Shown: positions 3,169-62,736 of the stretch, piece after piece | Numbering within the stretch: position 1 is the first letter of the stretch | Layout of the letters: each line of letters starts with the position of its first letter | NCBI RefSeq assembly: GCF_014204895.1 | Contig: NZ_JACHMF010000001.1 | Location: 4,526,001-4,590,000, forward strand | Direction: 5' to 3' | DNA: 64,000 bases | Origin: Paractinoplanes abujensis | GTDB taxonomy: Bacteria > Actinomycetota > Actinomycetes > Mycobacteriales > Micromonosporaceae | Notes under the pieces: model-generated | Seen by the model: only the letters and a program-made list of their open reading frames with translations | The model's database searches: none | Told to the model about the DNA's origin: nothing | Made by a program: the position numbers and the translations under genes

Positions 3169-3170
3169 CT

Positions 3171-10440: not shown

Positions 10441-10458
10441 GGCTGCCTCCTACCGCCT

Positions 10459-10472: not shown

Positions 10473-10594
10473 TATATTGACGACTGTAGATAAGCAGGCG
10501 AAGAAAGAGAAGAGGCAATCGCAGGAGACGGCCGGTGAGGTGGCCGAGGCGGGTTTGCCGGTGCGGCCGCTGGTGCCGGTGGCGGGTCCGCGCC

Positions 10595-11206: not shown

Positions 11207-11273
11207 AGCGAATCCCCATTGGCGACAGACGTGCCGAGAGTGATGATTGATCCCCGACACTAGGATTTGAAGG

Positions 11274-15296: not shown

Positions 15297-15308
15297 ACCC
15301 CTCGGTCG

Positions 15309-39321: not shown

Positions 39322-41245
39322 CCTCGCCCGGCAGCAGCGGCTGGAACCGCGGCGGCGCCACCCGCTTCGGGCTCGCATCACCCGCGGGCACCGCCGGCGC
39401 CGTCGCACCCGGCACGGGCAGCTTGCCCACCAGCGGCAACGACAGCGAACTGCCGCGCAGGTCGAGGCGCACGGTCGCGCCCGTCGACTGCGGGGTCGAA
39501 TACTCGTTGTCGCCGGCCTGCAGGATCAGGCCGAGCACGTGCCCGGCGGCGATCCGCTGATCGGTCGGCTGCAACGGCACGGTCACGGAATACCAGCGGC
39601 CGGGCTGCAACGGCGTCACGAACCGCAGCGACACGCGGTGCGCGGCGTCTTGCCAGCCCCGCGTGATCACGGCGTGGTCGCTGGTCACCACGTCCTCGGC
39701 GGTGTCGCGGTAACAGGCGTCGTCGAAGGGCGCCGACGCACCCCAGCACGACTCCGTGGCCAGCGTCGTGATGCCCTCACCGCGGCCCTCGTAGTTGACC
39801 CGGGTCGCGGTGCCGTAGTCGACGAGCCGGGCCGTCAGCTCGGTCGTCGGCTTGTCCACCTGCACCTTGAGGGTCACCGTGGGCGTGCCCGAGATCCGTA
39901 CGGGCTGGGTCAGCGGCGCCGAGAGGAACGCCACCCGGCCCGGCACGGCGGCGTTCGGGCTCGCCACGGCGGCCGCCTCGCTCAGCTCCGGGTTGTCGGT
40001 CCACGTACGGGAACCGCCGTTGACCTTGCCGCCGAGCGTGCCGGTGACGCCGTCGCCGTTGCCCAGGGCCACCTTCGCCGGCTTGGCGGCGGGGGCGGGC
40101 CAGCTCCGCTCGTTCACCCAGGTGCCCGGCGCGGTCTCGATCGTCACCGCCGGCTCGCGGTCGATGCCGTTGCGCAGCCCCTGCAACCAGCGGTCGAACC
40201 ACCGGTGCAACGTGTCCACCCATTCCGCGCGGCGGATGTCGAACGGGTCGACGTGCCCCTGCTGGGCCAGCCACATCTTCTTGGGCCCGTTCAGCCGCTC
40301 CCACCACCGCGCGAACTGGGTGGTGGTCACGTTGGTGTCGTTGAGGCCGTGCGCGATGAGCACGCTCGCGTGCACCCTGCGGGCGTCGGGCCGGAAATCC
40401 CGCTCGGCCCAGTACGCGTTGTAGTTGCCCGTCGCGTCGTCGCTGCCCTCGTCGAGCTCCTTGACCACGGTGTCGCAGACCCCCGCGGGCCGCCCGTTCA
40501 CCACCCGGTGCAGATACTCCGGGTAGTCCTCCACCCGCAGCACACCGTTGTAGCGCTGGTAGTCGTACCAGCTGGAGATGGCCGAGATCGGCACGATCGT
40601 CTCCAGCCCCTCGACGCCCGTCGCGGCCACCCCGTTGGCCACCGAGCCGTCCCACGACTTGCCGATCATGCCCGTCCTGCCGTTGGTCCACCGCGTCGCC
40701 ACCGCCGGCGAGCCATCGGCGTACGTGGCCTTGGCCCTGCCGTTGAGCCAATCCACCACGGCTTTGGCGCTGAGCACTTCCTCCCGGCCACCCACATCCA
40801 TGCACCCGGTCGACCGGTTGGTGCCGGCGATGTCGGCCGCCACGAACGCGTACCCGCGCGGCACGAAGAAGTTGTCGTAGAACAGCGGCTGCTTGGTGAT
40901 CACGCCGTTGGCGTCGTACTGCTTGAGCTCACTCTCGTTGCCGCGCCCACAACACGAGTAGTACGGCGAGGCCTCCAGAATGACCGGCACCTTGACCGCA
41001 GCCCGCGGCCGCGTGATGTCGACGGCCACCTTGTCAGGCACACCGTCCCGATCGTTGTCGAGAGTGGTCTGCACCCACACACTCTCCCGGACAGCATCCT
41101 CGTAGGAGTAGACGGGCACAGTCTCCCCGCCCCGGACATGCGCTGGAGTCCCGCTCGCCGCGGCCGGCATCGCGGCGACGGCCAAGCCGGCCCCGACCCC
41201 CGCGACCACGGCTGTGGCCAGCCATCGCTTTCGTAGCCCTGACAT
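39299..41245 (-). CDS. secreted X-Pro dipeptidyl-peptidase-like S15 protein
   Basis: 648 residues. Sec signal about 1-31. Alpha/beta hydrolase domain with catalytic triad S197 (GKSWDG), D303 (GLNDTNV) and H331 (QQGHVDP), followed by the X-Pro dipeptidyl-peptidase C-terminal jelly roll from about 380. Streptomyces relatives cleave X-Pro dipeptides and similar tripeptides from exported peptides. An inverted repeat ATCGACG/CGTCGAT spans its start and a TACGAT -10 lies six bases before the ATG at 41245, so it is probably leaderless. Substrate inference only. Confidence 0.9.
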   Translation of the reverse strand: MSGLRKRWLATAVVAGVGAGLAVAAMPAAASGTPAHVRGGETVPVYSYEDAVRESVWVQTTLDNDRDGVPDKVAVDITRPRAAVKVPVILEASPYYSCCGRGNESELKQYDANGVITKQPLFYDNFFVPRGYAFVAADIAGTNRSTGCMDVGGREEVLSAKAVVDWLNGRAKATYADGSPAVATRWTNGRTGMIGKSWDGSVANGVAATGVEGLETIVPISAISSWYDYQRYNGVLRVEDYPEYLHRVVNGRPAGVCDTVVKELDEGSDDATGNYNAYWAERDFRPDARRVHASVLIAHGLNDTNVTTTQFARWWERLNGPKKMWLAQQGHVDPFDIRRAEWVDTLHRWFDRWLQGLRNGIDREPAVTIETAPGTWVNERSWPAPAAKPAKVALGNGDGVTGTLGGKVNGGSRTWTDNPELSEAAAVASPNAAVPGRVAFLSAPLTQPVRISGTPTVTLKVQVDKPTTELTARLVDYGTATRVNYEGRGEGITTLATESCWGASAPFDDACYRDTAEDVVTSDHAVITRGWQDAAHRVSLRFVTPLQPGRWYSVTVPLQPTDQRIAAGHVLGLILQAGDNEYSTPQSTGATVRLDLRGSSLSLPLVGKLPVPGATAPAVPAGDASPKRVAPPRFQPLLPGEVRPAPTA

Positions 41246-41267
41246 CGACGCATCGTATTACGTCGAT
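41244..41267. promoter_or_regulatory. inverted repeat over S15 peptidase start
   Basis: ATCGACG (41244-41250) and CGTCGAT (41261-41267), 10-base spacer, covering the leaderless start and the -10 (TACGAT on the minus strand). Probable operator; regulator unknown. Confidence 0.55.
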
Positions 41268-41313
41268 GCCCCTGGGGTCAGGGCTCCGCCGGGGCCGGCT
41301 TCCGGATGCCGGT

Positions 41314-42588
41314 TCAGTCCATGCCGGCACCGGTCTCGACATCAACCTCGACCGCGGACGTGGGGCTGCCGCCGATCATGGCCGTAGCCGCGGCTACGTC
41401 CAGGTCCGGAGCCGGTCCGGGAACTCCCCCGGTGACGAGCACCCCGGTTCGGGTCCCGTCCGGCAGCACGATCCACGTGCCGTCAACCTTGGCGTTACGG
41501 ACCCGGCCGGAGGCGCGGAAGAGCCCCGAAGGTTTCCGCACCACCGGGATCTTGAAGCTGGTGGACCGGCTCTTGAAAGTAACCTTGCCGGTCGCCGAGG
41601 TCGCGCTGAAATCACCGGTCATCACGTTGCCGTTGCGCCCGGCAAGATTCAGGCGACCGTTCGATGCGGTGCCGTGGTACCAGGCTTCGACCTTCTTGCC
41701 GTCGCAGAAGTACGCCATCGCCTTGCCGTCGCGCATCGCCAGGTAGAGCGTGCCGGCGCCGCCCGGAAGGTGAGCGGCCATCGTGGCTCGCAGAGCACGC
41801 GCGGTGGTGGCGGTGGGCCCCGGGCTGGGGATGACGCTCGGGCCCGGAGCGGATGACAGCGACGTCGCGCGTTGAGCGCCGGACCCGGCCTCGGCTCTGC
41901 TGCGGTCCTTGCCGCGGGCTGCTGTCAACCCACCGACGACCAGAACGCTCAGCAGGATCGCCATCGCGATGACCGGCTTCACGACAGCAGAACGGCGCGT
42001 CTCCGAAGGCGGTGGTGCGCTCAGTTCCGCGTCACGTTCAACAGTCGAGGGCACGGCGGCCCGCTCGACAACCAGCGGCTGCTCCGCAATCGGCTTCTCC
42101 CGCGGCAGCCCCACGGCCGGCTTCTCCCGCGGCAGCCCCACGGCCGGCTTCTCCCGCGGCGGCCCCGCGGCTGCCTTCTCCCATGGCGGCACGCTCAGCC
42201 GGGACGCAATCTCCGTGGCCGTCGGGCGCGCGGCCGGGTCCACCGCCCAGCAGTCCCACAACTCGGTTTCGAGATGCGGAAAAAGCTCAGCAAGGACGGT
42301 GCCGAGGCTGTAGACATCGGCGGCCGAGGTCGCCGGCGTCTCGCCTCCGACCTCGGGTGCCGAATAGGCGGTGCGCTCCTCACCCGACGTCCCGAAGCCG
42401 GTCAGTCGCACCACCGGCGGGTCGCTGTCGCGAACGACCACGATGGTGTCGGGAGTCAGAGCGAGGTGCGTCACGCCCGCCTCGTGGGCCGCCGCCAGCG
42501 CCGCCGCGGCCTGAGCGCCGGCGAGGCGGGCCTGAGCGGCCGACCAGCCGGTCGCGCACGTGCGTAGAGAGTCGTCCGACATCATCAC
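41314..42588 (-). CDS. membrane pseudokinase without N-lobe
   Basis: 424 residues, GTG start 42588 overlapping the EccC stop by four bases. Residues about 15-135 are only the C-lobe of a Ser/Thr kinase: VTHLALTPDTIVV in place of HRDLxxxN, LTGFGTSG in place of DFG, but a good APE (TAYSAPEV), DVYSLG and DPAARP. No glycine loop or VAIK lysine exists, so it cannot bind ATP normally. A Pro-Lys-Glu repeat (PREKPAVGL, three copies) links it to a membrane helix near 206-226 and an extracellular domain (about 290-424) rich in beta strands. It is the last gene of the type VII operon and could be a scaffold partner of the active kinase at 51143. Confidence 0.8.
   Translation of the reverse strand: MMMSDDSLRTCATGWSAAQARLAGAQAAAALAAAHEAGVTHLALTPDTIVVVRDSDPPVVRLTGFGTSGEERTAYSAPEVGGETPATSAADVYSLGTVLAELFPHLETELWDCWAVDPAARPTATEIASRLSVPPWEKAAAGPPREKPAVGLPREKPAVGLPREKPIAEQPLVVERAAVPSTVERDAELSAPPPSETRRSAVVKPVIAMAILLSVLVVGGLTAARGKDRSRAEAGSGAQRATSLSSAPGPSVIPSPGPTATTARALRATMAAHLPGGAGTLYLAMRDGKAMAYFCDGKKVEAWYHGTASNGRLNLAGRNGNVMTGDFSATSATGKVTFKSRSTSFKIPVVRKPSGLFRASGRVRNAKVDGTWIVLPDGTRTGVLVTGGVPGPAPDLDVAAATAMIGGSPTSAVEVDVETGAGMD
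42091..42171. repeat. 27-bp tandem repeat, three copies
   Basis: In-frame units at 42091-42117, 42118-42144 and 42145-42171 encode the nine-residue PREKPAVGL linker repeat of the pseudokinase gene; an imperfect fourth unit adjoins. Length can vary without frameshift. Confidence 0.9.
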
Positions 42589-45500
42589 TCCGGTTGCCGC
42601 GGCGCGGCGGGGCTCAAGGTCCGGATCAGGGCCTCCGGCCGACCGGACCGGATCAACTGCGCCACGCCGGGCGCCAACGGCCGCCCGCGCAGGTTGCCGG
42701 GCAACATCTCGGTGCGAGCGGCGATCGAGAAGTGCATTCGCCAGGGGGCCGATTCGAGCGTTCGTTTGACCAGCAGATCACCGGCTCGAATGGCGGCATT
42801 GGTGGCGATCTGGTTGAGCACGAAACTCGCTGCCACTCGTTCCGAGACCAAGGCGTACGCCGAGAGGTCGAGCAAAGTGCCGGGCCGGCCCATCGGGCTC
42901 AGGGCCTGCACGAGCTCGAAGTCGTCCACGACCACGAGCACAGGCCGGTCACCGGCGGCCGGTCCGGCGGTCATCCGTCCATCGAAAAGCTCTTTGACCT
43001 CGCCGACCATCGCCTCGAGCTCACCCAGGGAGGTCGCCGACCCCCGGACCTCGACGTCCAGGTTCCTGAGCAGGCCGCCCCGGAAATCGACGACATACGT
43101 GTCGACGCCGGTCCGGGCGGCACCAGCGATCATCCGGGACAGGGTCGACGTCCGGCCCGACTCGACGTCGCCGAAGATCATCAGGTGGCCGTCGCGGCCG
43201 GGCGCGAACGGCACCGGCCGGAACCCGGACTCGTTGAGCCCGAGCAGGATGTCGCCGTCGCCGGTCACCGCCCGCTCGGCCTGCCGGAACTCGTCCGCCG
43301 ACAGGTCGTCGAGGAGCAGCAGACGCCGCGCCTTGGGAGCACCGGAGCCGGCGGCGACACCGGCCACCACGTCGCCGAGCGCGCCCGGCACCGACGAAGT
43401 CGAACCGGCGTAAGGCGCAGCGATCTGCATCTGCATGCCGCCGGGGCCGAGCGCCCGGCCAGGCCCTGCGCCGCTGAGCAGGCCCCCCTTGGCCCGGCCG
43501 AACTGAGAGTCACTGGCCTCGTTGAGACGCAGCTCGAACCGGGCAGCGATCTGCTCGAGCTTGCGGGCGTTGACGTCGGTCCACCGGGCCGTGCTCAGAT
43601 GCAGGTGGAGCCCGAAGTTCGCGCCCTCGATCAACAGCCGCTCGATGACCGGCTCGAACTCGGCATACCTCTCCTTGAACGCCGCGTAGTTGTCGATCAC
43701 GAGGACGGTGTGGGCCTGGGTTTCCTCGTCGCCGACCCGCTCGGCCAGCCGCCGCTGCTCCGTCATGCTGCTCACCCGGTCGCGGCGGAACTGAACGGCC
43801 CGCTCGTCGAGCAGGGTGACCATCTCGGCCAGGATGCGGGCCACTCGATGCGGCTCCTGCGGGGTGGCATAGCTTCCGACATTGGGCAGGTTCGCCGTCG
43901 CGGCCAGCAGCCCGCCGCCGAAGTCGAGAACGTGGAACCGCAGCAGGTACGCCGGATAGCGCCGAGCCGCCTGCAGCAACTCGGTGGCCATGGCCGAGCT
44001 CTTACCCGACTGGGGCGCCCCGACGATCGCGAGGTGACCACCGAGCCGGGCCACGTCCACCAGCACCGGGTTCTGCCGGCGACGCAACGGGTCGTCGAGC
44101 AGTCCGACCGGAAACGGCAAACCCTCCTCCACCGGAACTGCTCCTGGCTCCAGACGTGGATCCTCGAGCGCAAGGAACTCCATCCGCGCCGAGTTCGGCA
44201 GCGGCGCCAGCCACAGCGGGGGCGCCTGCGGCACGGTCCGGAGCCGCTCGACCACCAGGGCCAGGTCGGTCTGTGGCCCCTCCGCGGTGACCGAGATCTG
44301 CGAGCCCTTGAAACGTTGGAGAGTGGCCGCGGCCCGGAAGAAACCATGCCCGGGCAGTGGCGGCAACTCCGCCGCGGCCTTGGATCCGATCGCCGCGCTG
44401 CTCTCCTCCGCGGTGAAGGTGCGCAGCGCGATCCGGTAGCTCAGGTAGCTTTCAAGGCCGCGGATCCGGCCCGCTTCGAGTCGCTGGCTGGCCAGCAACA
44501 GGTGCACGCCCAGGCTGCGGCCCTGACGTCCGATCGAGAGCAGCAGGTCGAGGAACTTCGGCTCCGCCTCGAGCAGCTCGGCGAACTCGTCGATGACCAG
44601 CAGCAGGTAGGGCAGGCGGGGCAGGTCCGGATTCTGCTCGCGCAGCGCCCAGTAGTCGCGGATGCCCTGCAGGTCCTGACCGGCACCGGCCAGCAGCCGT
44701 TGCCGGGCGAGCAGCTCGCCGGTGAGCGAGCTGCGCATCCGATCGATGAGCGTGAGGTCGTCGAGGATATTGGTGATCAGGCCGGTGCAGTGGGGCAACT
44801 CGGCCAGCAGCTCGAACGCGGCGCCGCCTTTGAAGTCGACGAACGACATCTGCAGTTCGTCCGGGCTGTGCGTCAGGGCCAGCGACGTGATCATCGAGCG
44901 CAGCAGTTCGCTCTTGCCGGAGCCGGTCGCACCCACGAGCAGGCCGTGCGGCCCGTGCCCGTTGGCCGCGCCCTCCTTGAGGTCGAGCGTGAACGGCCGC
45001 CCGTCGGCCTGCACCCCGAACGTGGCGGTGAGGAAACCGGACGGATCACGGTGGTCCCAGCGCGGCCGGAGCGGTCGCTGATCCAGCAGGTCGAGCAGCA
45101 GATCCCCCGACGAGTCACCGACGAACGACAGGTCACTGACCAGCTGCCGCCGCCCGATCACGGAAGCCACCCGTTGCGCCTCGGCCACCGCGGACCCGAT
45201 CGCGGCGAACCGCACCGGAAGGTCGGAACTACGTACGGGCTGCAAAACACCGTGACCGCGGCCGTCGACCACAAGCACGGTGGACGCCTCGGCCGGGCTG
45301 TCCCGCGGGGTCTCCGAGACGGTGAGGACGGTGATACCGAGCTGCCGGGCCCGGGCCAGCGCGTCCTGCAGAAGTGGAATTTCCTGCAGCTCGGACAGCG
45401 GGTGATACGCGTCGAGCACAATGATCAGATGGGCCAGGCCGGCCTTCGCGGTCGACCAGTCGGTCTCGTCGAGCAGTTGCGCCCGCGGCTCGACCACCCT

Positions 45501-46361
45501 CGCGAGGGCGGTCGCCAGAGCCTTGGCGTCGGTGGCTATGGCCGGTGCAGCCTCAGCCCCGCGCGCCATGTGCGGGATGCCGGTGGCCCACGCCCACTCA
45601 TGAGCGAGATCGGGCGGGGCGGCGACGAGCAGCGAGAGTTCGTCCGGACCGCAACAGACCACGGCCTCAAGCAGCATCGACCGGGCGAGTCCGGCGGCGG
45701 CCGCGCGCGGCCCTTCGACACCGATGACCGCGTGCTCCTGGAGAGAAACGGTGAAAGGTGCATCCCGTACGGTCGCCGCCGCCGCTTTGACCGCCTCGGC
45801 GCGGTCCTGCAGGTCGATCATCGGATCGGCTTCGAGCGCGGCCGTCTTGCCGATCTCGACCGTGAGTCCCGACGGCACATCGGCCACCCCGACAGCTACA
45901 TCGAGGAAGTCCTCGTCGGTCAGCCGTCGCTCCCACAGCCGCCCACCGGCAATCCAATCGGAGAGCTGAGTGGGCGCCGGGTGGCTGAGCTCGAGCGCCG
46001 CCCGGATCTGCTTCTTCGCTGCGGTCACACCCGTCTCGACCGCGTCGACCATGACGGTGTAACGCTCGGCCCGTTTGATGTTCCGTTTGTCGGCGGCCTT
46101 CCGATTACCCCGATACATGATCAGAGGGGTAGCCATGGCCGCAAACGTGACCAGTCCCCCCAGCACGATCATCTGAACGGACCCCGACGTGATCCCGAAA
46201 ATCAAAATCGTGCCGGTAGTCAGCACCGGCAGAAAAACCATAGCCGCCTGCGGCGGCTGAGGCTTCTCCACAGTCGGCACCGCCGGCACGTCGAATTCAG
46301 TCACCGCGGGCCGCGCCCCCAGCCACCGCCCCCGCCGATGAACCGGCTCCAACTCACTCAT
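42585..46361 (-). CDS. EccC-type type VII secretion ATPase
   Basis: 1258 residues from ATG 46361; a TTG further up would add 28 poorly conserved residues. Two membrane helices at about 39-85, then three FtsK/SpoIIIE ATPase modules. Module 1 Walker A GATGSGKSEL (about 475) and Walker B LLLVIDEFAEL are intact; module 2 has GAPQSGKSS (about 779); module 3 has GDVESGRTST (about 1063), Lys replaced by Arg. This is the motor that recognises Esx substrates and drives them across the membrane. It follows the substrate genes 88 bases after the pentapeptide gene. No EccB, EccD, EccE or MycP gene accompanies it, so it must borrow a channel or work alone. Confidence 0.9.
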   Translation of the reverse strand: MSELEPVHRRGRWLGARPAVTEFDVPAVPTVEKPQPPQAAMVFLPVLTTGTILIFGITSGSVQMIVLGGLVTFAAMATPLIMYRGNRKAADKRNIKRAERYTVMVDAVETGVTAAKKQIRAALELSHPAPTQLSDWIAGGRLWERRLTDEDFLDVAVGVADVPSGLTVEIGKTAALEADPMIDLQDRAEAVKAAAATVRDAPFTVSLQEHAVIGVEGPRAAAAGLARSMLLEAVVCCGPDELSLLVAAPPDLAHEWAWATGIPHMARGAEAAPAIATDAKALATALARVVEPRAQLLDETDWSTAKAGLAHLIIVLDAYHPLSELQEIPLLQDALARARQLGITVLTVSETPRDSPAEASTVLVVDGRGHGVLQPVRSSDLPVRFAAIGSAVAEAQRVASVIGRRQLVSDLSFVGDSSGDLLLDLLDQRPLRPRWDHRDPSGFLTATFGVQADGRPFTLDLKEGAANGHGPHGLLVGATGSGKSELLRSMITSLALTHSPDELQMSFVDFKGGAAFELLAELPHCTGLITNILDDLTLIDRMRSSLTGELLARQRLLAGAGQDLQGIRDYWALREQNPDLPRLPYLLLVIDEFAELLEAEPKFLDLLLSIGRQGRSLGVHLLLASQRLEAGRIRGLESYLSYRIALRTFTAEESSAAIGSKAAAELPPLPGHGFFRAAATLQRFKGSQISVTAEGPQTDLALVVERLRTVPQAPPLWLAPLPNSARMEFLALEDPRLEPGAVPVEEGLPFPVGLLDDPLRRRQNPVLVDVARLGGHLAIVGAPQSGKSSAMATELLQAARRYPAYLLRFHVLDFGGGLLAATANLPNVGSYATPQEPHRVARILAEMVTLLDERAVQFRRDRVSSMTEQRRLAERVGDEETQAHTVLVIDNYAAFKERYAEFEPVIERLLIEGANFGLHLHLSTARWTDVNARKLEQIAARFELRLNEASDSQFGRAKGGLLSGAGPGRALGPGGMQMQIAAPYAGSTSSVPGALGDVVAGVAAGSGAPKARRLLLLDDLSADEFRQAERAVTGDGDILLGLNESGFRPVPFAPGRDGHLMIFGDVESGRTSTLSRMIAGAARTGVDTYVVDFRGGLLRNLDVEVRGSATSLGELEAMVGEVKELFDGRMTAGPAAGDRPVLVVVDDFELVQALSPMGRPGTLLDLSAYALVSERVAASFVLNQIATNAAIRAGDLLVKRTLESAPWRMHFSIAARTEMLPGNLRGRPLAPGVAQLIRSGRPEALIRTLSPAAPRQPE

Positions 46362-46449
46362 GACGGGGCCCAAATCCTGGTGCTCAACGGCATTTCCCTC
46401 AATGGAGTAATTGATATCTCGCGACCGTATGCCGGCTCGGGTCAAGAAG

Positions 46450-47094
46450 CTACGGCTGGGAGCCCGGTATCAGCACCTCGACGTGTGCTCCACGCGCGGC
46501 GAACCAATCCGCTAGTGCCGGTCCGACAAGCTCTCGTTCCCCGTCATCTTCTACAACCGTGACCGGACCGTAGAGCGAGCCGGTCAGGCCTCGCACCACA
46601 GAGGATTCGTCTACGCGAGCCACGAAGAAGGTCCCACTGAAGACTGCATCGGAAAGATCCGCGCCGCGGAAATCGGCGTCCGACACTGATCCGCCCAGAA
46701 GTTGCGCCCGCCGGAAGCTGGCGGATCTGGCATCCACAGCGATCAGCGAGGCACTTGTCAGGTCGGCATCGTCGAACTTAGCGCGATGCAAAGTCGCCCG
46801 GTCCAACGATGCCTTAGTCAGGTTCGCCCCGGTAAGGTCGGCATCCGTCATCTCAGCGGACTCCAGATGCGCCCGATGCAATTCGGCTTCACGGAGTACG
46901 ACAGAGGTCAGCACCGCGTTGGACATCCATGCTTCAGTGAAGTCAGCATTGGTCAGGTCGGCTCCCCTCAGATCCATACTTGCCGCATTGAACACGTCAC
47001 CGGAGGACCGGGTCCATTCCTGAAGATATTCCGCCGCTTCCGCGCTGAGGGGCGCGCGGACTGGACGCCACGGCCTATGGGTACCAGATGACAT
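46450..47094 (-). CDS. pentapeptide-repeat protein, probable immunity protein
   Basis: 214 residues from ATG 47094, with GGGGCGG upstream; the start lies inside the end of the toxin gene (20-base overlap), so translation is coupled. About residues 40-150 are A(D/N)LxX pentapeptide repeats (LRGADLTNADFTEAWMSNAV, MTDADLTGANLTKASLDRAT) expected to fold as a right-handed quadrilateral beta-helix. A C-terminal alpha-beta part (about 155-214) follows. Position directly after a nuclease toxin suggests it binds and blocks it, or mimics DNA like other pentapeptide proteins. Inference from context. Confidence 0.7.
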   Translation of the reverse strand: MSSGTHRPWRPVRAPLSAEAAEYLQEWTRSSGDVFNAASMDLRGADLTNADFTEAWMSNAVLTSVVLREAELHRAHLESAEMTDADLTGANLTKASLDRATLHRAKFDDADLTSASLIAVDARSASFRRAQLLGGSVSDADFRGADLSDAVFSGTFFVARVDESSVVRGLTGSLYGPVTVVEDDGERELVGPALADWFAARGAHVEVLIPGSQP

Positions 47095-48520
47095 TGCCGC
47101 CCCAACCTTTCTGATCCGCAACACCTTTGATGAAGTCGATCGCCTCTATGTTGGCGTTTCGGGTGTCGATGATCACCTTTCGACCCCTACCGGTGATCTC
47201 GCTCTCCAGGTTCTTCACGAAATCTTCCGCGACACGCGGGTTCCGAACCGGATCGACTGCTTGCGGGAACAGCTGATCAGGATCTTTCGGAGTGGATCCC
47301 GGCGGCCAATCCGAATGCAGGCCCTTGACGTCATAGTATTCACCGGTGCTCGGGGAGAAAAAGTCTCCCTTTCCACGCTCAGTCGGCCGCTGCAAGTCTT
47401 CCGGTAGGCGCTTCTGTTCCCGCAGGTCGAGCCCGATACGGGCCTCATCCTGCGAGCTGGAGGAAATCCGGCCGCCGCCGTCCGGGTCGCGAGACAATCG
47501 GTCGAACTCGTCAGGGTAGCGCTGCTCGATCTCGCGGAGACGCTTATTGACGGCATCACGTTCCGCCGGCGAAAGCGCGCGACCCTGCCCAGAAGCGCTC
47601 AGCTTTGCCTCGGGCAGCCGGGTGTCCGGCTCATTCTTCGGCGTTTTACCGGCGCCGGTAATGTTGGCGTGGGTGTTGCCCTTCAAGACTTTGGAGATCT
47701 GAGAACCGACGACCGGGCTGATACCGCCGAGGGCTCCGGCGAAGACCAGGTGCCCCGGGTCCAGCTTGCGGTCTCGGTAGAGCTCGATCACCGCCTCTGC
47801 CGTCACGTTGTTCGCGGCGCCGCGGAAGAAGAGCTTTCCCTTGCCGTGGAAGGGCATCAACAGGCTGACCGCGGACGTGATGGTGACGTCCTTGGGGCTG
47901 ATGTCGCGGAACGGGTTGCTGCGCCAGTCCTCGACGAGGTTGCCACCCACCTGCGGGGCGACCTCGAAGCCGGCGTTCACGACGAACCTGGCGGCGATTC
48001 CCTTGAGGCTTGTGCCCACTGTGCGCAGGACAAGCCGAACCGCCAGTGCGCGGACTGCGATCAGGATGAGACGGATGGAGTTGACGACCTGGGCGGCGCG
48101 GGCCGCGGTGACGAAGGTTCCGAGGCCGGCCGTGACGAATCCGACGGCTACGCCGATGACCAGTGTCGCGCCGATTTGCTCCAGCAGGCTCTTGACCTTC
48201 TCGCGCTGCTCCTCGAGGTCGTCGGCGAGTTGGCGGACGTCGGCGGCGGCGCTGTCCAGTTCGGCGCAGAGCTCGTGCACCCCGCCGGCCATGGTGGTCC
48301 ACTCGGCGACGAACGCCGCCTGAGCGCTGCCCGTCCACGCGTCGCCGACGCCGAGGATCTGCGCCTGGGTGGCTTCCACCATGGAGCGCAGTCCGTTGGC
48401 GACATTCGTCCAGACAGCCGCGGCCGCGCGCAGCTGGCCCGCGTCGAAATGCGGGAATCCCGGATAATCGAAAGTTTGCGGGGGCTCGGCGTCGGCGGGA
48501 TTGACCGGTACGTCAGTCAT
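47075..48520 (-). CDS. WXG100-headed polymorphic toxin with REase-like C-terminus
   Basis: 481 residues. N-terminal about 25-120 is a WXG helical hairpin (W62, G64 in DAWTGSAQ), followed by hydrophobic helices (LVIGVAVGFVTAGLGTFVTA, about 120-140), and a middle with RLVLRTVGTSLKGIAARFV. The last 131 residues look like a CdiA-type PD-(D/E)XK nuclease: E359, D386 and D397-V-K399 (YYDVKG), with F and W-rich tail GWGGNVIWYP. Secreted by the type VII machine, it probably cuts nucleic acid in rival cells. Its gene precedes an overlapping pentapeptide-repeat gene. Toxin class is inferred from motif spacing. Confidence 0.75.
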   Translation of the reverse strand: MTDVPVNPADAEPPQTFDYPGFPHFDAGQLRAAAAVWTNVANGLRSMVEATQAQILGVGDAWTGSAQAAFVAEWTTMAGGVHELCAELDSAAADVRQLADDLEEQREKVKSLLEQIGATLVIGVAVGFVTAGLGTFVTAARAAQVVNSIRLILIAVRALAVRLVLRTVGTSLKGIAARFVVNAGFEVAPQVGGNLVEDWRSNPFRDISPKDVTITSAVSLLMPFHGKGKLFFRGAANNVTAEAVIELYRDRKLDPGHLVFAGALGGISPVVGSQISKVLKGNTHANITGAGKTPKNEPDTRLPEAKLSASGQGRALSPAERDAVNKRLREIEQRYPDEFDRLSRDPDGGGRISSSSQDEARIGLDLREQKRLPEDLQRPTERGKGDFFSPSTGEYYDVKGLHSDWPPGSTPKDPDQLFPQAVDPVRNPRVAEDFVKNLESEITGRGRKVIIDTRNANIEAIDFIKGVADQKGWGGNVIWYP

Positions 48521-48525
48521 GTGTC

Positions 48526-48825
48526 CTACGGTTCTTGCTCGACCGTGTTCGCGGTCTCCGTGTCGGCGTAGAGACGGCCCGCCATGAACAGGCGCGTCGC
48601 CATTCCTTCGAGTGCGGCCCCGAGCTGCCCCAAAGCGTGCACGGCCGAGTCCAGCGCCTCGCTGTAGTCCGCCGCGGACTGGTCACTGCCGCTGACGTAT
48701 TCCGACTCCGGCGACCGTGCGCCGTTCGACAGCATGGTCCGGAAATTGGCCACGTCGGAACCGGCCGCGGAAACCACACTGGACAGTCTTTGCACGGCCG
48801 CCGGGTCGACGGAGAAATCGGTCAC
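48526..48825 (-). CDS. EspC-like small type VII substrate
   Basis: 99 residues from GTG 48825, which overlaps the stop of the WXG100 gene (GTGA). No WXG motif; two helices, then FMAGRLYADTETANTVEQEP with a YxxxE secretion signal (YADTE), as in EspC/DUF2580-type partners. Likely forms a heterodimer with the WXG100 protein upstream or with the toxin head. Five bases separate it from the toxin gene. Confidence 0.75.
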   Translation of the reverse strand: MTDFSVDPAAVQRLSSVVSAAGSDVANFRTMLSNGARSPESEYVSGSDQSAADYSEALDSAVHALGQLGAALEGMATRLFMAGRLYADTETANTVEQEP

Positions 48826-49109
48826 GAGAAGCTGCCGCGGACCGCGGACTCGGTGCTCTCGTAGTTGGTGGCGGCGGTCTGCATGGTCTGGCCGATCTGG
48901 GTCAGCGTGTCGTGCAGCGCCCGCACGTCGGCGTCCCATTTGGTGTAGAGCGCCTGCAACGCCGCGGACGCCGAGCCCTGCCAGCTGTCACCGAGGCCCT
49001 GGATCTGCGCGAGCAGGGTGGCCCGCTGCGCGTCGATTTCCGAGGCGCCCGCCGAAACCTGGGCGGCGACGCCCCGGATCGCTTCGGGGGAAACTGAGTA
49101 GTCAGACAT
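48822..49109 (-). CDS. WXG100 family protein (EsxA/EsxB-like)
   Basis: 95 residues. Helical hairpin with W43-Q-G45 turn (DSWQGSAS) and a C-terminal YxxxE signal (Y83 to E87). Classic length for Esx substrates. First gene of the leftward unit; a GAAAGG ribosome site precedes ATG 49109, with 136 bases of divergent promoter region to the VWA gene. Secreted as a dimer, probably with the EspC-like protein. Confidence 0.85.
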   Translation of the reverse strand: MSDYSVSPEAIRGVAAQVSAGASEIDAQRATLLAQIQGLGDSWQGSASAALQALYTKWDADVRALHDTLTQIGQTMQTAATNYESTESAVRGSFS

Positions 49110-49245
49110 GAAGAGCCTTTCGGTGGCGTATGCGGTTGTCCCTGAAGTCGGACGCTAGCATTTCGATTCAGGTTGCTGCAGACTTTCTTTTTGCCACGCC
49201 GAGCGCCATAGTTTCCGAGTCCGAAGACAAACATGAGAAGGTAGT

Positions 49246-50220
49246 ATGTCGCAGGTTCATGTTCTACTGCTCGGCCCGGAAGGCGCCTTTGCCTCGGTGG
49301 CGCTGAGCGATGATATTTCGTTTTCTGCGCAACGGGAGACGATCGCCCGGGCATTGAACCTGCCGGATGGTCGCGACTTGACCATCCGAAAGGACGATGG
49401 CTCCCCCCTCGACCAGGGTCGCCCTTTAGCGAATATGGGGGTCCGTTCCGACGATCGGATTTTGATCGAGGTACGCAACAATTCGCGATCCGGATTCCTG
49501 GGCAGATTCGGACGGCGCGGGGAGGAACCGGACACCCCTGTCGTCCCTTCGGCCTACCGGGTGCTGCCCTGCTACCTGGCCGTGGACACCTCGGCGTCGA
49601 TGGCGGGCGACCCCATCATCCGGGTCAATCAGGAGTTGCCGCGGCTGCGCGCCAAGATGCTCCGGGAGCCGGAGCTGGCCGAGGTCTGTCAGCTGTCCGT
49701 GGTCGCGTTCGAGGAGACGGCGGTAGTGCACGCCCCGCTCACCGACGTCGCCCAGATGGAGCTGCCCGGGTTGACCGCCGACGGTACCGGCACCAATTAC
49801 GCCCATGTGTTCTCGTTGCTGCGGTCTACCATCGCGAGGGATCTTTACGAGTTGTACCGCAGCGGCCGCCGGCCGTACCGTCCGGTCGTGTTCTTCCTCA
49901 GCGACGGCCAGCACAACCGGCCGGACGACTGGCGGGAGACCCTCGGCCGGCTGACCGACCGTTCGGAGTTCTACGGCGCACCGGCCATCGTCGCGTTCGG
50001 GTTCGGTGAGGCGGATCCCGAAACCATCCGGGAGGTCGGCCTCAAGGCGTCCTACATGCCGGACGACGGCACACCGTCGGCGAAGCTCGACACCTTCATG
50101 ACCTTCCTGCTCAGCTCGCTGACCAACTCGATGGCCGGGGGCAGCCGCGACCGCGACGACGTGTTCGTGGTCCCGCCGTCCGCGCCTGCGGGATGGCGAG
50201 CCATCAAGATCCAGCGATGA
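49246..50220 (+). CDS. ubiquitin-like (YukD/EsaB-type) plus VWA fusion protein
   Basis: 324 residues. Residues 1-77 (VHVLLLGPEGAFASVALSDD, DGRDLTIRKDDGSPLDQGRP, DRILIEV) form a beta-grasp-like unit of the size and pattern of YukD/EsaB, the ubiquitin-like type VII proteins. From about 105 a von Willebrand A domain with intact MIDAS D114-x-S-x-S118 and FFLSDGQHN. VWA of this kind is the TerY component of TerY-P phosphatase-kinase triads, here followed by exactly those two partners. ATG 49246 with AAGG upstream. It may couple type VII regulation to phosphorylation. The fusion is inferred from fold patterns. Confidence 0.75.
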   Translation: MSQVHVLLLGPEGAFASVALSDDISFSAQRETIARALNLPDGRDLTIRKDDGSPLDQGRPLANMGVRSDDRILIEVRNNSRSGFLGRFGRRGEEPDTPVVPSAYRVLPCYLAVDTSASMAGDPIIRVNQELPRLRAKMLREPELAEVCQLSVVAFEETAVVHAPLTDVAQMELPGLTADGTGTNYAHVFSLLRSTIARDLYELYRSGRRPYRPVVFFLSDGQHNRPDDWRETLGRLTDRSEFYGAPAIVAFGFGEADPETIREVGLKASYMPDDGTPSAKLDTFMTFLLSSLTNSMAGGSRDRDDVFVVPPSAPAGWRAIKIQR

Positions 50221-51143
50221 CGGCGTCACCGCCCTCCGGACCTGGGGCGATCCGGCGCGTTCTGGGCTATCTGCTGCCACCGGTGGGCGGCCGTGGCGAG
50301 CCCACAGCCCGGACTGTCGGCCGGCCGATGACCGTGGGCGAGCCGATCGTGCAGTCACCCGAGGACGATGCTCTGACTGTCACGTCGTGGGTCACCCAGC
50401 CGAGGATGAGTGCCGACGGCGGAACACTCGGAACCTTGACCGTCCGGGCCGCCTCAGTGAGCGGACGTCGCCACGCGCGGCAGGGCGGAAGCCGCGAGGA
50501 TGCGTACGCCATCAGCCCGGCCACCGATGGTGTGGTCGTGGCCGTCGCCGACGGCGTGGGTGACCCTTCCGCACGCTTCTCGGCGGTCGGCGCACAGCTG
50601 GCCGCCGTCGAAGCCTGCCGGTTGATAGCGAACTGCCTCGATCGCCCCCAAACGATCGACGCGGACGAGGTATGCCGGGTGATCAGTACGTCCATGACGC
50701 AGCAGGCCGGCCGATTCGTGCCCGACGAGTACGACGCCCGCTCGCTCGCCACGACTTTGACCGTCGTGTGGATCTCGACCGGTGGCGAGTACGCGGGCTT
50801 CCGGGTCGGCGACGGCGAGATGTTCGAGATCGGCCAGGGCGGCCTGGTGTCGGCAGGTCCACCCGCCGGCGGCTCCTTCACCGAGACCGCGGCCCTGCCC
50901 GGCTCGTGGACGACGGTCGAGACGTTCGAGGGCCGGCTGCAACCGCGGACCGCCTTGGTGGTGGTGACCGACGGGTTGTCGGTGCCGATGCGTTCGCCTG
51001 ACGTCGCGACCCACCTCACCCGCCGCTGGCACGAGGTGCCGACCATCGTGGAGTTTTTGGACGACATCTCCTTCGAACGACGGGGCGAATCAGACGACCG
51101 TACGGCGGTCTGCGTCTGGTTCCTCCCCGAGGCAGGTGCCTGA
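50217..51143 (+). CDS. PP2C-family protein phosphatase
   Basis: 308 residues from ATG 50217, four-base overlap with the VWA gene. A 70-residue variable head, then PP2C motifs: GGSREDAYAI, VVVAVADGVGDPS (metal Asp), LVVVTDGLSVPM and ESDDRTAVCVWF. Removes phosphate from Ser/Thr of substrates made by the kinase that follows. No membrane segment, so soluble. Completes, with the VWA and kinase genes, a TerY-P-like triad. One-base overlap with the next gene. Confidence 0.85.
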   Translation: MTASPPSGPGAIRRVLGYLLPPVGGRGEPTARTVGRPMTVGEPIVQSPEDDALTVTSWVTQPRMSADGGTLGTLTVRAASVSGRRHARQGGSREDAYAISPATDGVVVAVADGVGDPSARFSAVGAQLAAVEACRLIANCLDRPQTIDADEVCRVISTSMTQQAGRFVPDEYDARSLATTLTVVWISTGGEYAGFRVGDGEMFEIGQGGLVSAGPPAGGSFTETAALPGSWTTVETFEGRLQPRTALVVVTDGLSVPMRSPDVATHLTRRWHEVPTIVEFLDDISFERRGESDDRTAVCVWFLPEAGA

Positions 51144-52786
51144 TGACTGACTGGACCGGGCCCGCCGAGCCTCTGGACCGTGCACTGCTTTCGCTCACCG
51201 GGGAGTCCGTCGGCCATCCGGGAGCGAAAGGCGCCGTCCACGTCGTTGATGAGTCGACTTACTACAAGGAGTATCTCGAGCCGATCGACGACCCCGGCCA
51301 TCTCGACGAGCTGATCGGCTGGCGCCGCTCGCTGCCACCCGAAGACCGCGCCTTTCTCGATGCGCACTGTGCTTGGCCGCTGCGCCGGGTGGCGGACGAG
51401 GGCCTCACCACCGGTTTCCTCATGGCGCCGGCGCCGGACGAGTTCTGGGCCGACATGCTCGGCGAGCGGCACACCATGGAGCTGCAGCACCTGATTCACG
51501 CCGCGCGAGCCAAGCAGCTCGGGATCACCGTTCCCGACCGGCCGCAACGGCTGCTTCTGGCTCAAGACCTCGCCGAGCTCCTCGCGCTGTTCGACAGGCA
51601 CGACATGGTTTACGGCGACATCAGCGAGAAGAACGTCCTGTGGACCCTGCGGGGCGAGCCGCGGACGTACTTCATCGACTGTGACAACGCCCGCCGCGTC
51701 CACAGTGCGCACCGCCAATCGGCCATGGCCCGCAACGACGGATGGCGTGACCCTCTGCTCGGCCCGGACGACCTGCCCGACGTCGACAGCGACCGGTTCG
51801 CGCTCGCGGTCTTCTTCTACCGCGTCTTCTACGGCGTCACCGTCTCGGTCGACCAGCAGGACGGCAAGGTTCTCCTGCCCGACGACGCCCCGGAACTGCC
51901 ACGGCTGGAGGCTCTGCTGGGCGCCGGGCTGGGCCTGATCCGTCCACGTCCGACCGCCGACGAGTGGGCCGGCGCGCTGCGGAACGCGGACAGCGATCGC
52001 CCGGTGCCCCCGCCGCCCAAAACGGCCCCACCTCGCGTCCGGGAGGGCCGGAAGAAGACTTTCGCGGCCGTCGCGATCGGTGTGGTCGCAGCGTCAGCGT
52101 TGGCTGTGCCACTGATCGTGCGCGGAACCAGCCATGCTGAACACCGGGCGGAACCGCAGCCGGACGTGGCCACCACGACAGCCACGCCTGCCGCGCCACC
52201 GGCCCCGGAGCTGCTGACCCGCGACGAGGCGCTGACCGAGTGGGCGGCCGGCCCGGTGGGGATCCAGATCAATCGCTACTACTCGTGGTACGTCTGGGAC
52301 GAGAACAAGGCCGACGCGTTCTCCCTGGTGTACCTGAGGCCGTCCATAACCAACGACACGCCGGCATCGCTCGACCTGTCGCTGGCCTACGACAACTTGG
52401 TGCTCGTCACTGACACCAAGCCCAAGCCGATCGGCAGCGACGTCCCGGTGTACGAGCTACCCGGCATGAGCGAGGGCAACGAGCTGTACGGCTTGGGTTC
52501 CGCCTACGACTGGACTTTCCCTTATGACGGAACCGATCATAAGATCAGCTGGTCAGCTCAGACACTCGCCCCGGGCGCGACGTTCACGTCAAAACGCGTT
52601 CAGGGAGGCTCGATGGGCTACCAGTTCCCCCCGGTCGCGACGAAGGCCGACGACTCCTTCAGCCTTGCCCCCGCCAAGCTGCACGTCCTCGGCGTCGGCT
52701 GGTTCGAGAACGAGCAGATGATGGGTTTCGCCCCCGTCTCCGCCTGGAAGAACCCCAACACGCCCGAGTCGTTCCTGACCGAATGA
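51143..52786 (+). CDS. membrane Ser/Thr kinase-like protein of TerY-P type
   Basis: 547 residues. Kinase fold about 20-280: YKEYLEPI has the presumed ATP Lys, catalytic loop YGDISEKNVLW keeps Asp and Asn (HxD His is Tyr), and metal loop FIDCDNARRV replaces DFG. Helix about 305-327 (TFAAVAIGVVAASALAVPLI) spans the membrane, then an extracellular beta-rich part (about 360-547). The kinase head is of the type found next to VWA and PP2C proteins in TerY-P systems rather than the PknB type. Likely active, but the missing His may slow it. Possible targets are the type VII components. Confidence 0.8.
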   Translation: MTDWTGPAEPLDRALLSLTGESVGHPGAKGAVHVVDESTYYKEYLEPIDDPGHLDELIGWRRSLPPEDRAFLDAHCAWPLRRVADEGLTTGFLMAPAPDEFWADMLGERHTMELQHLIHAARAKQLGITVPDRPQRLLLAQDLAELLALFDRHDMVYGDISEKNVLWTLRGEPRTYFIDCDNARRVHSAHRQSAMARNDGWRDPLLGPDDLPDVDSDRFALAVFFYRVFYGVTVSVDQQDGKVLLPDDAPELPRLEALLGAGLGLIRPRPTADEWAGALRNADSDRPVPPPPKTAPPRVREGRKKTFAAVAIGVVAASALAVPLIVRGTSHAEHRAEPQPDVATTTATPAAPPAPELLTRDEALTEWAAGPVGIQINRYYSWYVWDENKADAFSLVYLRPSITNDTPASLDLSLAYDNLVLVTDTKPKPIGSDVPVYELPGMSEGNELYGLGSAYDWTFPYDGTDHKISWSAQTLAPGATFTSKRVQGGSMGYQFPPVATKADDSFSLAPAKLHVLGVGWFENEQMMGFAPVSAWKNPNTPESFLTE

Positions 52787-52803
52787 CCTCGGCGCGTGCT
52801 TCG

Positions 52804-55101
52804 CTAAGCGGCGATGCGGTTCCCGGCCGGGGCCGGGCGGTAGGTGGCGACCGCCGAGGCGGGCATCGGGTGGCCGTAGTGGAAGCCCTGCGCGTAGCGG
52901 TAGCCCAGGCGCTGCAGTTCGGCGGCCTGTTCGGCGGTTTCGACGCCCTCGGCCACGGCTCGCAGGCCCATGCCCTCGCAGATGCCGATCAGCGCGGCCA
53001 CCACCACGGCCTGCTGCCCGCCGGACGTGACGTCGTCGACGAAGGACTTGTCGACCTTCAGCACGTCGGCCGGGCAGGTGCGGAGCAGGCCCAGCGAGGA
53101 GTGGCCGGTCCCGAAGTCGTCCAGGGCGATCTTCACGCCCAGGGCGGAGATGGCCCGCACCTCGGCCAGGGCGCTGCCGCCGTCGAAGACGGCCGTCTCG
53201 GTGACCTCGATCGTCAGTGTCGACGGCGGAAGTCCGGTGCGTTGCAGCACGGCGGCGACGTCGGAAGCGAAGCCGGCCTCGCGGAGCTGCCGTGCCGAGA
53301 CGTTGACGGTGACCGTGCGCGGCGCCGCGTCCCCCAGTGACGTTCGCCAAGCCATGGCCTGGCGGCACGCCTCTTCGAGGATCCAGGCGCCCAACGGCAC
53401 GATCAGCCCGGTGCGTTCGGCGGCCGGAATGAAGACGTCGGGACCGATCGGGCCGCGTGCGGGGTGGTTCCACCGGATCAGGGCCTCGACCCCGTAGAGC
53501 TCACCGCCCGGCATGTGGACGATCGGCTGGTAGAGCAGGGTCAGCTGGTCGGCGTCCAAGGCCACGCGCAGGTCGGCGGCCAGGCGGGACTGTTCGGCGG
53601 TGCGCTGGTCCATCTCGGCGGCGTACGTGACCTGGCGGCCTTTGCCTTTCCCTTTGGCTTCGTACATGGCGACGTCGGCCCGCCGGAGCAGTTCGTCGGC
53701 GGTGTCGCCGTCGCGGGCGGGGGCCAGGCCGATGCTGCTCTCCACCACCAGTTCGTGGCCGCCGGCGTGGACCGACAGGCGGAGCTGGGACGTGATGGCG
53801 GCCAGGGTCCTCGCGGCGTCGCCGCGCAGCAGGAGGGCGTATTCGTCGCCGCCCTGGCGGGCCACGAGGCTGCCGGGCGGCAGTTGGGCGGTGATGGTTT
53901 CGGCCACGGCCACCAGCAGGGCGTCGCCGACGGCGTGGCCGAGGTCGTCGTTGATGGCTTTGAAGTCGTCGAGGTCGATCAGGGCGACGCTCACGTCGGA
54001 CGGGTCGTCGGCCAGCGCCTCGGTGATCTCGCGGGCCAGCACGGTGCGGTTGGCCAGGCCGGTCAGCCCGTCGTGGCCGGCCTGGTAGGCCAGTTCGCGC
54101 TGGCGGGCGTCGAGGTCCTCGAGCAGCCGGGCGTTGTCGCGCAGGGCGACCAGCTGGCGGGTGGCCACCAGCAGGGTGACGGTGACCGAGCCGATCGCGA
54201 CGGCGAGCAGGTCCGGGGTGTGGGCGACGGCGCTGGTCAGCAGCAGCACGGCGGTGGCCAGCACGGCCGCGTACGGCATCAGGCTGAGCCGTTTCATCGC
54301 GGGGCGGGGCAGGGGACGGCCGAGGTGGCTGGCCCGGATCTGCCGGTCGGCGGCCAGGCTCAGGCACAGCGAGGTGGCCGGCAGCAGGATGTGCGCGGTG
54401 TTCAGGTACGGCTTGTCGGCCAGCAGCGGGGCCAGTGAACCGCCGCCGGCGCCGACCGCGCCGGTCAGGGCGAGCAGGTGCAGGGCGCGCCGGTCGATGG
54501 GGCCGGTGCCGGTGAAGGCTACCTTGACGAAGGCGAAGACGCAGATGAAGCCGGCCACGAGCACGATGAACACGGAGAACGAGTCGGCGATGGTGCCGCC
54601 CAGCCAGCTCTCCCACCGCCGGTACGCGAAGTGCCAGGTGAACGTGAGCACGGTGACGATGACCGTGGCGATGTCGAGACCGAAGCGGGCCCATTCGATG
54701 CCGCTGCGCCGGGCGCCGGGGATGCGCAGCAGGCCGGCCACGAACGCGACCAGGCCCAGCACGTAGACGGCGGCGGTGAGCCCGCTGATGTGCTGCCCGT
54801 GCTGGGCGCCGCTGAAGTAGTCCCAGCCGTTGGAGATGGCGCCCAGGCCGATCAGGATGATGCCGACCGACGCGTACCGCCAGTAGGTGCGGCCGCCGGC
54901 CGAGGCCCGCCACGACACGACGGCGGCCACCGGCACCGAGATCAGCACGGCGAACCAGCCCAGTGACGTGGGGGTCTCGTGCACCAGGCCGAAACCGAAC
55001 CACAGGCAGGCCAGGGCGAGGGTGCACGCGGAGAGGGCCAGGGCGCGCGTCATCCGGAACGCGGGCACCCGCACCCCGCCGGCGGCTCTGGTCCTCTCCA
55101 C
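52804..55101 (-). CDS. membrane GGDEF-EAL protein (c-di-GMP turnover)
   Basis: 765 residues; GTG 55101 or the ATG at 55053 could be the start. About nine to ten membrane helices (about 20-325), then a diguanylate cyclase domain with GHDGLTGLANRT and RQGGDEYALLL (GGDEY, an active variant) and an EAL phosphodiesterase domain with GVEALIRWNHP, EVTETAVF, LDDFGTGHSS, LKVDKSFV and AEGVETAEQA, all intact. Both activities are possible; net effect unknown. The membrane part lacks a recognised sensor module. Monocistronic; on its upstream side lies the 367-base spacer, and its 3' end faces the kinase gene. Confidence 0.9.
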   Translation of the reverse strand: MERTRAAGGVRVPAFRMTRALALSACTLALACLWFGFGLVHETPTSLGWFAVLISVPVAAVVSWRASAGGRTYWRYASVGIILIGLGAISNGWDYFSGAQHGQHISGLTAAVYVLGLVAFVAGLLRIPGARRSGIEWARFGLDIATVIVTVLTFTWHFAYRRWESWLGGTIADSFSVFIVLVAGFICVFAFVKVAFTGTGPIDRRALHLLALTGAVGAGGGSLAPLLADKPYLNTAHILLPATSLCLSLAADRQIRASHLGRPLPRPAMKRLSLMPYAAVLATAVLLLTSAVAHTPDLLAVAIGSVTVTLLVATRQLVALRDNARLLEDLDARQRELAYQAGHDGLTGLANRTVLAREITEALADDPSDVSVALIDLDDFKAINDDLGHAVGDALLVAVAETITAQLPPGSLVARQGGDEYALLLRGDAARTLAAITSQLRLSVHAGGHELVVESSIGLAPARDGDTADELLRRADVAMYEAKGKGKGRQVTYAAEMDQRTAEQSRLAADLRVALDADQLTLLYQPIVHMPGGELYGVEALIRWNHPARGPIGPDVFIPAAERTGLIVPLGAWILEEACRQAMAWRTSLGDAAPRTVTVNVSARQLREAGFASDVAAVLQRTGLPPSTLTIEVTETAVFDGGSALAEVRAISALGVKIALDDFGTGHSSLGLLRTCPADVLKVDKSFVDDVTSGGQQAVVVAALIGICEGMGLRAVAEGVETAEQAAELQRLGYRYAQGFHYGHPMPASAVATYRPAPAGNRIAA

Positions 55102-62296: not shown

Positions 62297-62390
62297 GACC
62301 GGCCCTCCGCCGACCGCGTCCGGTGGACAACGTGACCCGGGAGGGTGAACGACCCGGGCCCGGGCCCCGCCCGTGGCTAGTCTGCCCCGC

Positions 62391-62732
62391 ATGGATCTGA
62401 GACTTGAGGTGCAGGGCGACGACCGGGACGCGATGGCGCTGAGCCGCTGGCTGCGTGACGAGCGCGAGCTGCGCGGATGCGTACGGCAGCAGCCCGGGCC
62501 GATGGACCCGGAGGCGATGGGCACGATGACCGACATCGTGGTGCCGCTCGCCACCGCCGTCGTGTCCGGCGCGCTGACCCCGCTGGCCGAGTCGCTGGTC
62601 ACGTTCGTGAGGCAGCGCAAAAGCAAGGTGACGATCGAGGTCGGCAGCGAATGCCGGATCACCGTCACCGGCGGCGACAACCCGGCCGCGCTCGCCGAGA
62701 AGCTGGCCCGGATCGCTATCGACGAAAGGTGA
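62391..62732 (+). CDS. EACC1-type effector-associated protein
   Basis: 113 residues from ATG 62391, leaderless: TAGTCT (62378-62383) is seven bases upstream and there is no ribosome site. Pattern fits the EACC1 family: an N-terminal beta strand, LSRWLRDERELRGCV, a hydrophobic helix DIVVPLATAVVSGALTPLAE, and a beta pair VTIEVGSECRITVTGGDNPA. In published analyses EACC1 is a constant companion of caspase-like and trypsin-like effectors in bacterial conflict systems. It is followed four bases later by a caspase gene. Function of the family is unknown. Confidence 0.75.
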   Translation: MDLRLEVQGDDRDAMALSRWLRDERELRGCVRQQPGPMDPEAMGTMTDIVVPLATAVVSGALTPLAESLVTFVRQRKSKVTIEVGSECRITVTGGDNPAALAEKLARIAIDER

Positions 62733-62736
62733 GCAC

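Follow-up and report, generated by a model that had tools for sequence, protein, structure and literature searches.

Can EccC, the motor ATPase of type VII secretion systems (T7SS), work from a compact block of genes that carries its own substrates and its own phosphorylation switch, and that lacks EccB, EccD, EccE and mycosin? The question is raised by positions 41314 to 52786 of a 64,000-nucleotide stretch of the Paractinoplanes abujensis genome (NZ_JACHMF010000001.1, 4,526,001 to 4,590,000; hereafter the window), which are filled by nine genes in two divergent arms. The leftward arm, whose genes are tightly packed or overlapping, encodes a WXG100 protein, an EspC-like protein, a putative WXG-headed toxin, a pentapeptide-repeat protein, EccC and a pseudokinase; the rightward arm, with overlaps of 1 to 28 bases, encodes a fusion of a ubiquitin-like and a VWA domain (Ub-VWA), a PP2C phosphatase and a kinase. 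All nine frames are open, and these frames and their Pfam and NCBIfam matches confirm the gene set that an earlier note on this DNA had listed, with no EccB, EccD, EccE or mycosin among the nine in the same scan. We consider it fairly probable that the block is a self-contained, phosphorylation-gated and horizontally gained T7SS variant found in Actinomycetota, similar in operation to T7SSc (TscA-TscG; Garrett, Higginson and Palmer 2024, PMC11217815), which is known from Bacillota, and that it exports an antibacterial toxin.

The ATPase is of the EccC rather than the EssC kind, scoring 539.6 bits against TIGR03924 and 418.7 bits against the EssC model TIGR03928, for which 778.4 are needed. Six proteins of its clade scored alike: all six passed TIGR03924 (516-551 bits) and all six missed TIGR03928 (382-430 of 778.4). 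It has a hydrophobic segment at its N-terminus, and the EccC models match it over nearly its full length. With its residues 1-450 as query, 13 proteins reached E ≤ 1e-60, its own included; this search and that with the toxin scored the 7,989 and 7,998 candidates, respectively, with most words in common. Trees of 52 sequences (of which L128 and L158 are the same gene) and 629 columns placed the window EccC with 12 relatives in one clade, which has a FastTree support of 1.000 and an ultrafast bootstrap of 100 and stands on a stem of about one substitution per site. The clade branches off between two groups, one the canonical EccC proteins together with L126-L129, the other more divergent ATPases of actinobacteria, although this placement is less certain than the clade itself, since the deciding branch has supports of 0.896 and 95. 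The block EccC is a separate lineage outside the canonical group. Among the 13 clade members, the Walker A motif of D1 is intact in all and that of D2 in 12 (P0079 has R for K), whereas D3 has R for K in every one.

The rightward arm resembles the TerY-P triad, in which a VWA protein, a phosphatase and a kinase stand together. Taken by itself, the ubiquitin-like end of the window Ub-VWA protein falls below every Pfam cut-off, but relatives confirm it: P0008 matches YukD (PF08817) at 31 bits (cut-off 27), and a profile of 26 relatives matches ubiquitin folds in the PDB, the best being a redesigned ubiquitin (E-value 4.4e-6). The VWA part is 30-40% identical to TerY-type plasmid proteins; D114, S116, T183 and D220 are invariant in the 26 aligned rows and S118 nearly so, and we take these residues to be the metal ion-dependent adhesion site. 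The active-site residues of PP2C were judged by eye. The best Pfam match of the kinase is RIO1, below cut-off (E-value 0.059), and its core, GD-x-S-x-x-N and DxD (GDISEKN and DCD), is common to the kinases of VWA-PP2C triads, with K42, D159, N164 and D181 invariant in three aligned proteins. Pfam found neither a zinc ribbon nor an OB-fold in it; it has instead a transmembrane (TM) segment and a further part of about 220 residues, which, judging from hydropathy, presumably lies outside the cell. Elsewhere, in membrane triads with no EccC nearby (for example L056, L062, L063, L072, L084, L086 and L088), the kinase is strongly hydrophobic near residues 324-362.

In the leftward arm, the WXG100 protein has a WQG motif and a YESTE sequence of the YxxxE type, and its EspC-like partner has YADTE, of the same type. 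The toxin tip is 62% identical, over the aligned part, to that of P0086, whose head is different; conversely, its head occurs without the tip in Paractinoplanes ovalisporus (locus L009), and a distant head (27%) in locus L180 of genome G064 is followed by a WHH nuclease tip and then by a SUKH gene. Heads and tips have recombined among these three, with a common export head and an exchangeable C-terminal tip. GC content at third codon positions (GC3) falls from 0.86 in residues 1-300 of the toxin to 0.70 in residues 301-481 and 0.66 in the pentapeptide gene. We read the gene as encoding a putative polymorphic toxin that, judging by these sequences, recently exchanged its tip together with the immunity gene. 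Given its place after the toxin, the pentapeptide protein probably confers immunity. Separately, pentapeptide repeats are fused to a VWA domain in P0065, two domain types that are adjacent in the block.

The pseudokinase has no N-lobe, the loops HLALTPDT and GFG, and a TM segment near residue 206, and it was matched at E ≤ 1e-8 in 40 of 67 genomes of the genus, its own included, in some by the C-terminal part only. At 14 loci its relatives are proteins of 530-666 residues with an N-lobe, 12 of them with HLDLKPEN, and L175 and L177 with HLDLTPEN and HLNLTPAT; inspection by eye showed no T7SS gene within 1.5 kb of these full-length relatives. The window protein was most likely recruited as an accessory, and it is kin to ordinary Actinoplanes kinases.

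Is the combination conserved? A search with the Ub-VWA protein gave 71 proteins at E ≤ 1e-3, of which 26 cover at least 92% of the query; most come from metagenome contigs, the others from named Actinoplanes and Dactylosporangium, among them Actinoplanes sp. CA-252034 and NPDC026619 and Dactylosporangium sp. McL0621. We also scanned genome contigs and kept the best 80 of 184 loci, where VWA, PP2C and kinase were found in 76 and the ubiquitin-like domain, by profile, in one, the P. ovalisporus locus. This locus keeps the same divergent gene order, with identities over the best pieces of 71% for EccC, 79% for WXG100, 55% for the EspC-like protein, 43% for the WXG-headed protein, 59% for Ub-VWA, and 53% each for PP2C and the kinase. 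This supports the earlier note's view of an Esx-toxin export module, reduced and coupled to a TerY-P-like triad: its core is conserved, in the same order, in another genome, and the neighbourhood whose lack of conservation would have refuted that view does exist. The pentapeptide gene, the pseudokinase and the toxin tip are not there, and these three look accessory.

The earlier note also raised the wider co-occurrence of EccC and triads. Ten of the 13 close EccC proteins, the window's included, lie on contigs listed as equally long as a Ub-VWA contig, whereas an EccC-like ATPase lies near the triad in just 2 of the 80 best loci, that of P. ovalisporus and L067 (243 bits, at the locus edge). 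Two pairs of Ub-VWA proteins also share listed contig sizes, P0014/P0019 (69,537 bases) and P0018/P0024 (211,557 bases), and may be tandem copies. The block is uncommon among sequenced isolates: counting its own genome, 2 of 67 genomes of the genus had a full-length match, and under strict matching the family gave 2 of 300 genomes, the order 1 of 397 and the phylum 1 of 396. Among 20 divergent-ATPase loci hand-picked from the lower-scoring rows of the ATPase search, one (L155) has a triad: an FHA-ATPase, WXG100, a WXG-like protein (below cut-off), VWA, kinase and PP2C stand in a row at 7975-15848. Its genome belongs to another class of Actinomycetota, common to the source genome at phylum level only, and the locus appears from its genes to be a second, differently built triad-linked T7SS, with the triad behind an FHA-bearing motor. 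Custom profiles also show PP2C in L142 and L157, the latter with a Pkinase-family kinase and an FHA-bearing ATPase.

Horizontal gain of the block is shown by the empty site in P. ovalisporus. There (L185), 8 bases separate the counterparts of window positions 52808 and 41268; the GGDEF-EAL and S15 peptidase genes that flank the block are adjacent, and the species' own core block is on another contig. In a comparison of 29 relatives' loci with 1.5-kb flanks, both flank genes occurred together in this genome only. The GC3 of the nine block genes is 0.66-0.91, compared with 0.92-0.95 in nine genes around them, and no integrase was found among the nine by Pfam or NCBIfam. At the block edge, an inverted repeat, CATCGACG-10-CGTCGATG (window 41243-41268), is kept at the empty site and is a candidate operator or insertion target.

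From these parts we propose the following mechanism. The divergent EccC would serve as a membrane motor that exports the WXG100/EspC-like pair and, for use against competing bacteria, the WXG-headed polymorphic toxin, with the pentapeptide protein as likely immunity. By analogy with ESX-5, in which the ubiquitin-like domain of EccD docks on EccC (PMC11217815), the ubiquitin-like end of Ub-VWA would dock on the motor, and the VWA domain would recruit PP2C and the membrane kinase. The outer part of the kinase may sense a cue, and the phosphorylation state would turn export on or off. Joint control of both arms from the intergenic region, as the earlier note suggested, is an inference. A bolder version, which we hold to be somewhat less likely than not, is that the block stands for a T7SS subtype of Actinomycetota still without a name. 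In it, a single YukD-VWA protein would do the work of EccD's ubiquitin-like end and connect a TerY-P switch directly to EccC, giving a complete and portable machine that may need no EccB, EccD, EccE or mycosin.

Several observations weigh against this proposal. We recognised no channel-forming part in the block, and we know of no EccC that makes a pore alone. Neither Pfam nor NCBIfam found an FHA domain in the block EccC, so that a phosphorylated target is not pointed to, or an EspG in the block; the T7SSc paper saw TscG by fold only. EccC is not near the triad in 78 of the 80 best loci, three of the 13 EccC proteins (on contigs of 12,623, 6,612 and 14,215 bases) have no Ub-VWA partner, and linkage beyond P. 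ovalisporus rests on the equal listed size of contigs. Since the toxin tip is absent in P. ovalisporus, the block there would export something else or nothing. Finally, the strain has EccB, EccD and mycosin, so the block may depend on the host ESX.

This last point leads to the alternative that the EccC and substrates of the block are auxiliary, plugging into the host's canonical ESX and swapping its motor for the sake of one toxin, with the triad as a local regulator. The source genome, a single contig of 9.33 Mb, has two EccC genes over cut-off, that of the window, which scores 520.3 bits in the genome-wide search, and a canonical gene (C1:7134924, 886.6 bits) adjoining EccD and mycosin, together with one EccB match (C1:1684184) and one EccD match (C1:7137180); P. 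ovalisporus likewise has one of each. Four further FtsK/EccC-like ATPases of 857-968 residues lie at C1:1162305, 7150368, 7868534 and 8175760 (79-106 bits). The single-contig assembly, these single copies, the ordinary flanks and the empty site exclude EccB and EccD genes next door, which the earlier note had named as a refutation, EccE not having been searched for genome-wide. Such a shared use of host parts would fit these counts. However, it is the N-terminal/TM/stalk part, with which EccC meets EccB and EccD in ESX systems, that is least alike: the block EccC is 55% identical to the host's canonical EccC in D1 and 17% in this part (mean to the canonical clade 18%), whereas pairs of canonical EccC proteins average 65% and 33%. 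Moreover, the block brings its own ubiquitin-like domain, and other ATPase-only T7SS sets have been described (PMC11217815). We regard an auxiliary EccC as unlikely.

Rather improbable, in our judgement, is a defence or conflict module, and not a secretion system, in which the TerY-P and EssC-like components fight phage or other invaders within the cell and the toxin kills its own cell. TerY-P-like modules do act against phage, and CoCoNuT III-A loci pair an EssC-like ATPase with two WXG100 proteins (PMC11090510); PADLOC, too, matched the block EccC to mad8 at 154 bits. Yet the hydrophobic N-terminal segment and near-full EccC model match of the block ATPase are unlike the TM-less CoCoNuT homologues, the WXG head of the toxin and the YxxxE motifs argue for export, and Pfam and NCBIfam matched none of the block genes to a nuclease, a helicase or McrBC. 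That the block is a decayed remnant of a larger T7SS, as its few parts, truncated pseudokinase and rarity might suggest, is very improbable in view of the nine open frames, the conserved Walker A motifs of D1 and D2 and kinase core, and the same reduced core in P. ovalisporus.

The features of the block are collected in the table below. Two starts were set by eye: the EspC-like gene probably occupies 48526-48825, and EccC probably begins at the ATG at 46361, giving 1258 residues, the length of P0072. Ten other window proteins were scanned, eight around the block and two at the window end, and none was a T7SS part. Elsewhere in the window, ARAGORN found an unusually dense array of fifteen transfer RNA genes within 1.4 kb (2030-3458, plus strand), 13 of which reach the Rfam threshold, and at 62373-64000 (plus strand) an EACC1 protein (63.5 bits) precedes a peptidase of caspase fold (39.9 bits) that the end of the window truncates; the two probably form a conflict or defence module.

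Table. Features of the block, with positions in the window and the evidence for each.
Feature	Position	Strand	Evidence
Whole inserted block (11.5 kb)	41269..52807		Empty site in P. ovalisporus and GC3 contrast
Truncated membrane pseudokinase (C-lobe only)	41314..42588	-	PF00069 32 bits (cut-off 31.7)
Divergent EccC ATPase	42585..46445	-	TIGR03924 539.6 bits (cut-off 509.15); TIGR03925 406 bits (cut-off 346.55)
Pentapeptide-repeat protein, candidate immunity	46450..47124	-	PF00805 100.1 bits
WXG-headed putative polymorphic toxin, tip about residues 310-481	47075..48520	-	PF06013 41.8 bits; PF25547 40.2 bits
EspC-like small partner	48526..48825 (longer open reading frame to 48939)	-	PF10824 24.7 bits (cut-off 23.5), longer frame
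WXG100 protein	48822..49109	-	PF06013 69 bits
Intergenic region common to both arms	49110..49245	.	Local similarity, with gaps, to the corresponding region of P. ovalisporus L009
YukD-like (ubiquitin fold)/VWA fusion	49246..50220	+	PF13519 30 bits (cut-off 27)
PP2C phosphatase	50193..51143	+	PF13672 92.3 bits
TerY-P-like kinase, TM segment near residue 308	51143..52786	+	Kinase core motifs; below every Pfam cut-off

If our proposal is correct, kinase- and phosphatase-linked T7SS variants of the T7SSc kind extend beyond Bacillota, and the Ub-VWA fusion would connect the switch physically and directly to the motor. A block of about 11.5 kb in a soil genus is small enough for questions on the minimal T7SS channel and on how export is switched, and EccC genes far from EccB, EccD and EccE would not necessarily be orphans.

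How does the block compare with known systems? With T7SSa/ESX it shares EccC and a WXG100/EspC-like pair with YxxxE, but it is without EccB, EccD and mycosin, and its EccC lies outside the canonical group. With T7SSb (EssB, YukD/EsaB) it shares a YukD-like fold and, in the window copy, a membrane pseudokinase; however, its EccC scores too low for the EssC model and lacks an FHA domain, and its pseudokinase, at most a candidate EssB, is kin to ordinary Actinoplanes kinases and absent in P. ovalisporus. As in TerY-P triads, a TerY-like VWA protein, PP2C and kinase stand side by side, and some Gram-negative triad loci have WXG100 and an FtsK/EssC-type ATPase nearby. A Helicobacter island carries TerY-P, WxG and FtsK (PMC4978471), and PMC11090510 credits Anantharaman et al. 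2012 with a WXG100/FtsK operon that is probably mobile and can be a stand-alone secretion system. The block differs from these in a kinase with a TM segment and outer part in place of a zinc ribbon or OB-fold matched by Pfam, in having no DNA-processing genes, in an EccC with a membrane segment and in a VWA protein with a ubiquitin-like domain.

The closest likeness is to T7SSc, which is reported in Bacillota only, with an ATPase nearer to EccC than to EssC, and comprises WXG100, a ubiquitin-like protein, an FHA-less ATPase, a kinase, vWA and a PPM phosphatase (PMC11217815). WXG100 (TscA), the FHA-less, EccC-nearer ATPase (TscC), the PP2C/PPM phosphatase (TscF) and a TM Ser/Thr kinase with a conserved active site (TscD) all have counterparts in the block, and neither set includes EccB, EccD or EccE. 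TscE, too, is a vWA protein, with this domain N-terminal, while the VWA domain of the block sits behind a ubiquitin-like domain. On the other hand, TscB is a small separate ubiquitin-like protein, whereas in the block this domain is fused to VWA; the block also adds an EspC-like partner and a pseudokinase, has no recognised EspG-like TscG, and is found in Actinomycetota. We do not file it as T7SSc, since it has no separate TscB and the likeness is one of kind of part. The T7SSc search began from a Brevibacillus EssC and could have missed sets of this kind. Open-licence PMC literature held nothing nearer under T7SSc in Actinomycetota, YukD-von Willebrand, TerY-T7SS or EccC-VWA/PP2C. With six matching kinds of part in T7SSc, and with printed TerY-P triads beside WXG100 and FtsK/EssC genes (PMC11090510, PMC4978471), the earlier note's view that no described system has this set does not stand. 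The kinds of part were already known; what sets the block apart is the host phylum, a set with no recognised EspG, the fusion of a ubiquitin-like domain to VWA, and a separate lineage of EccC.

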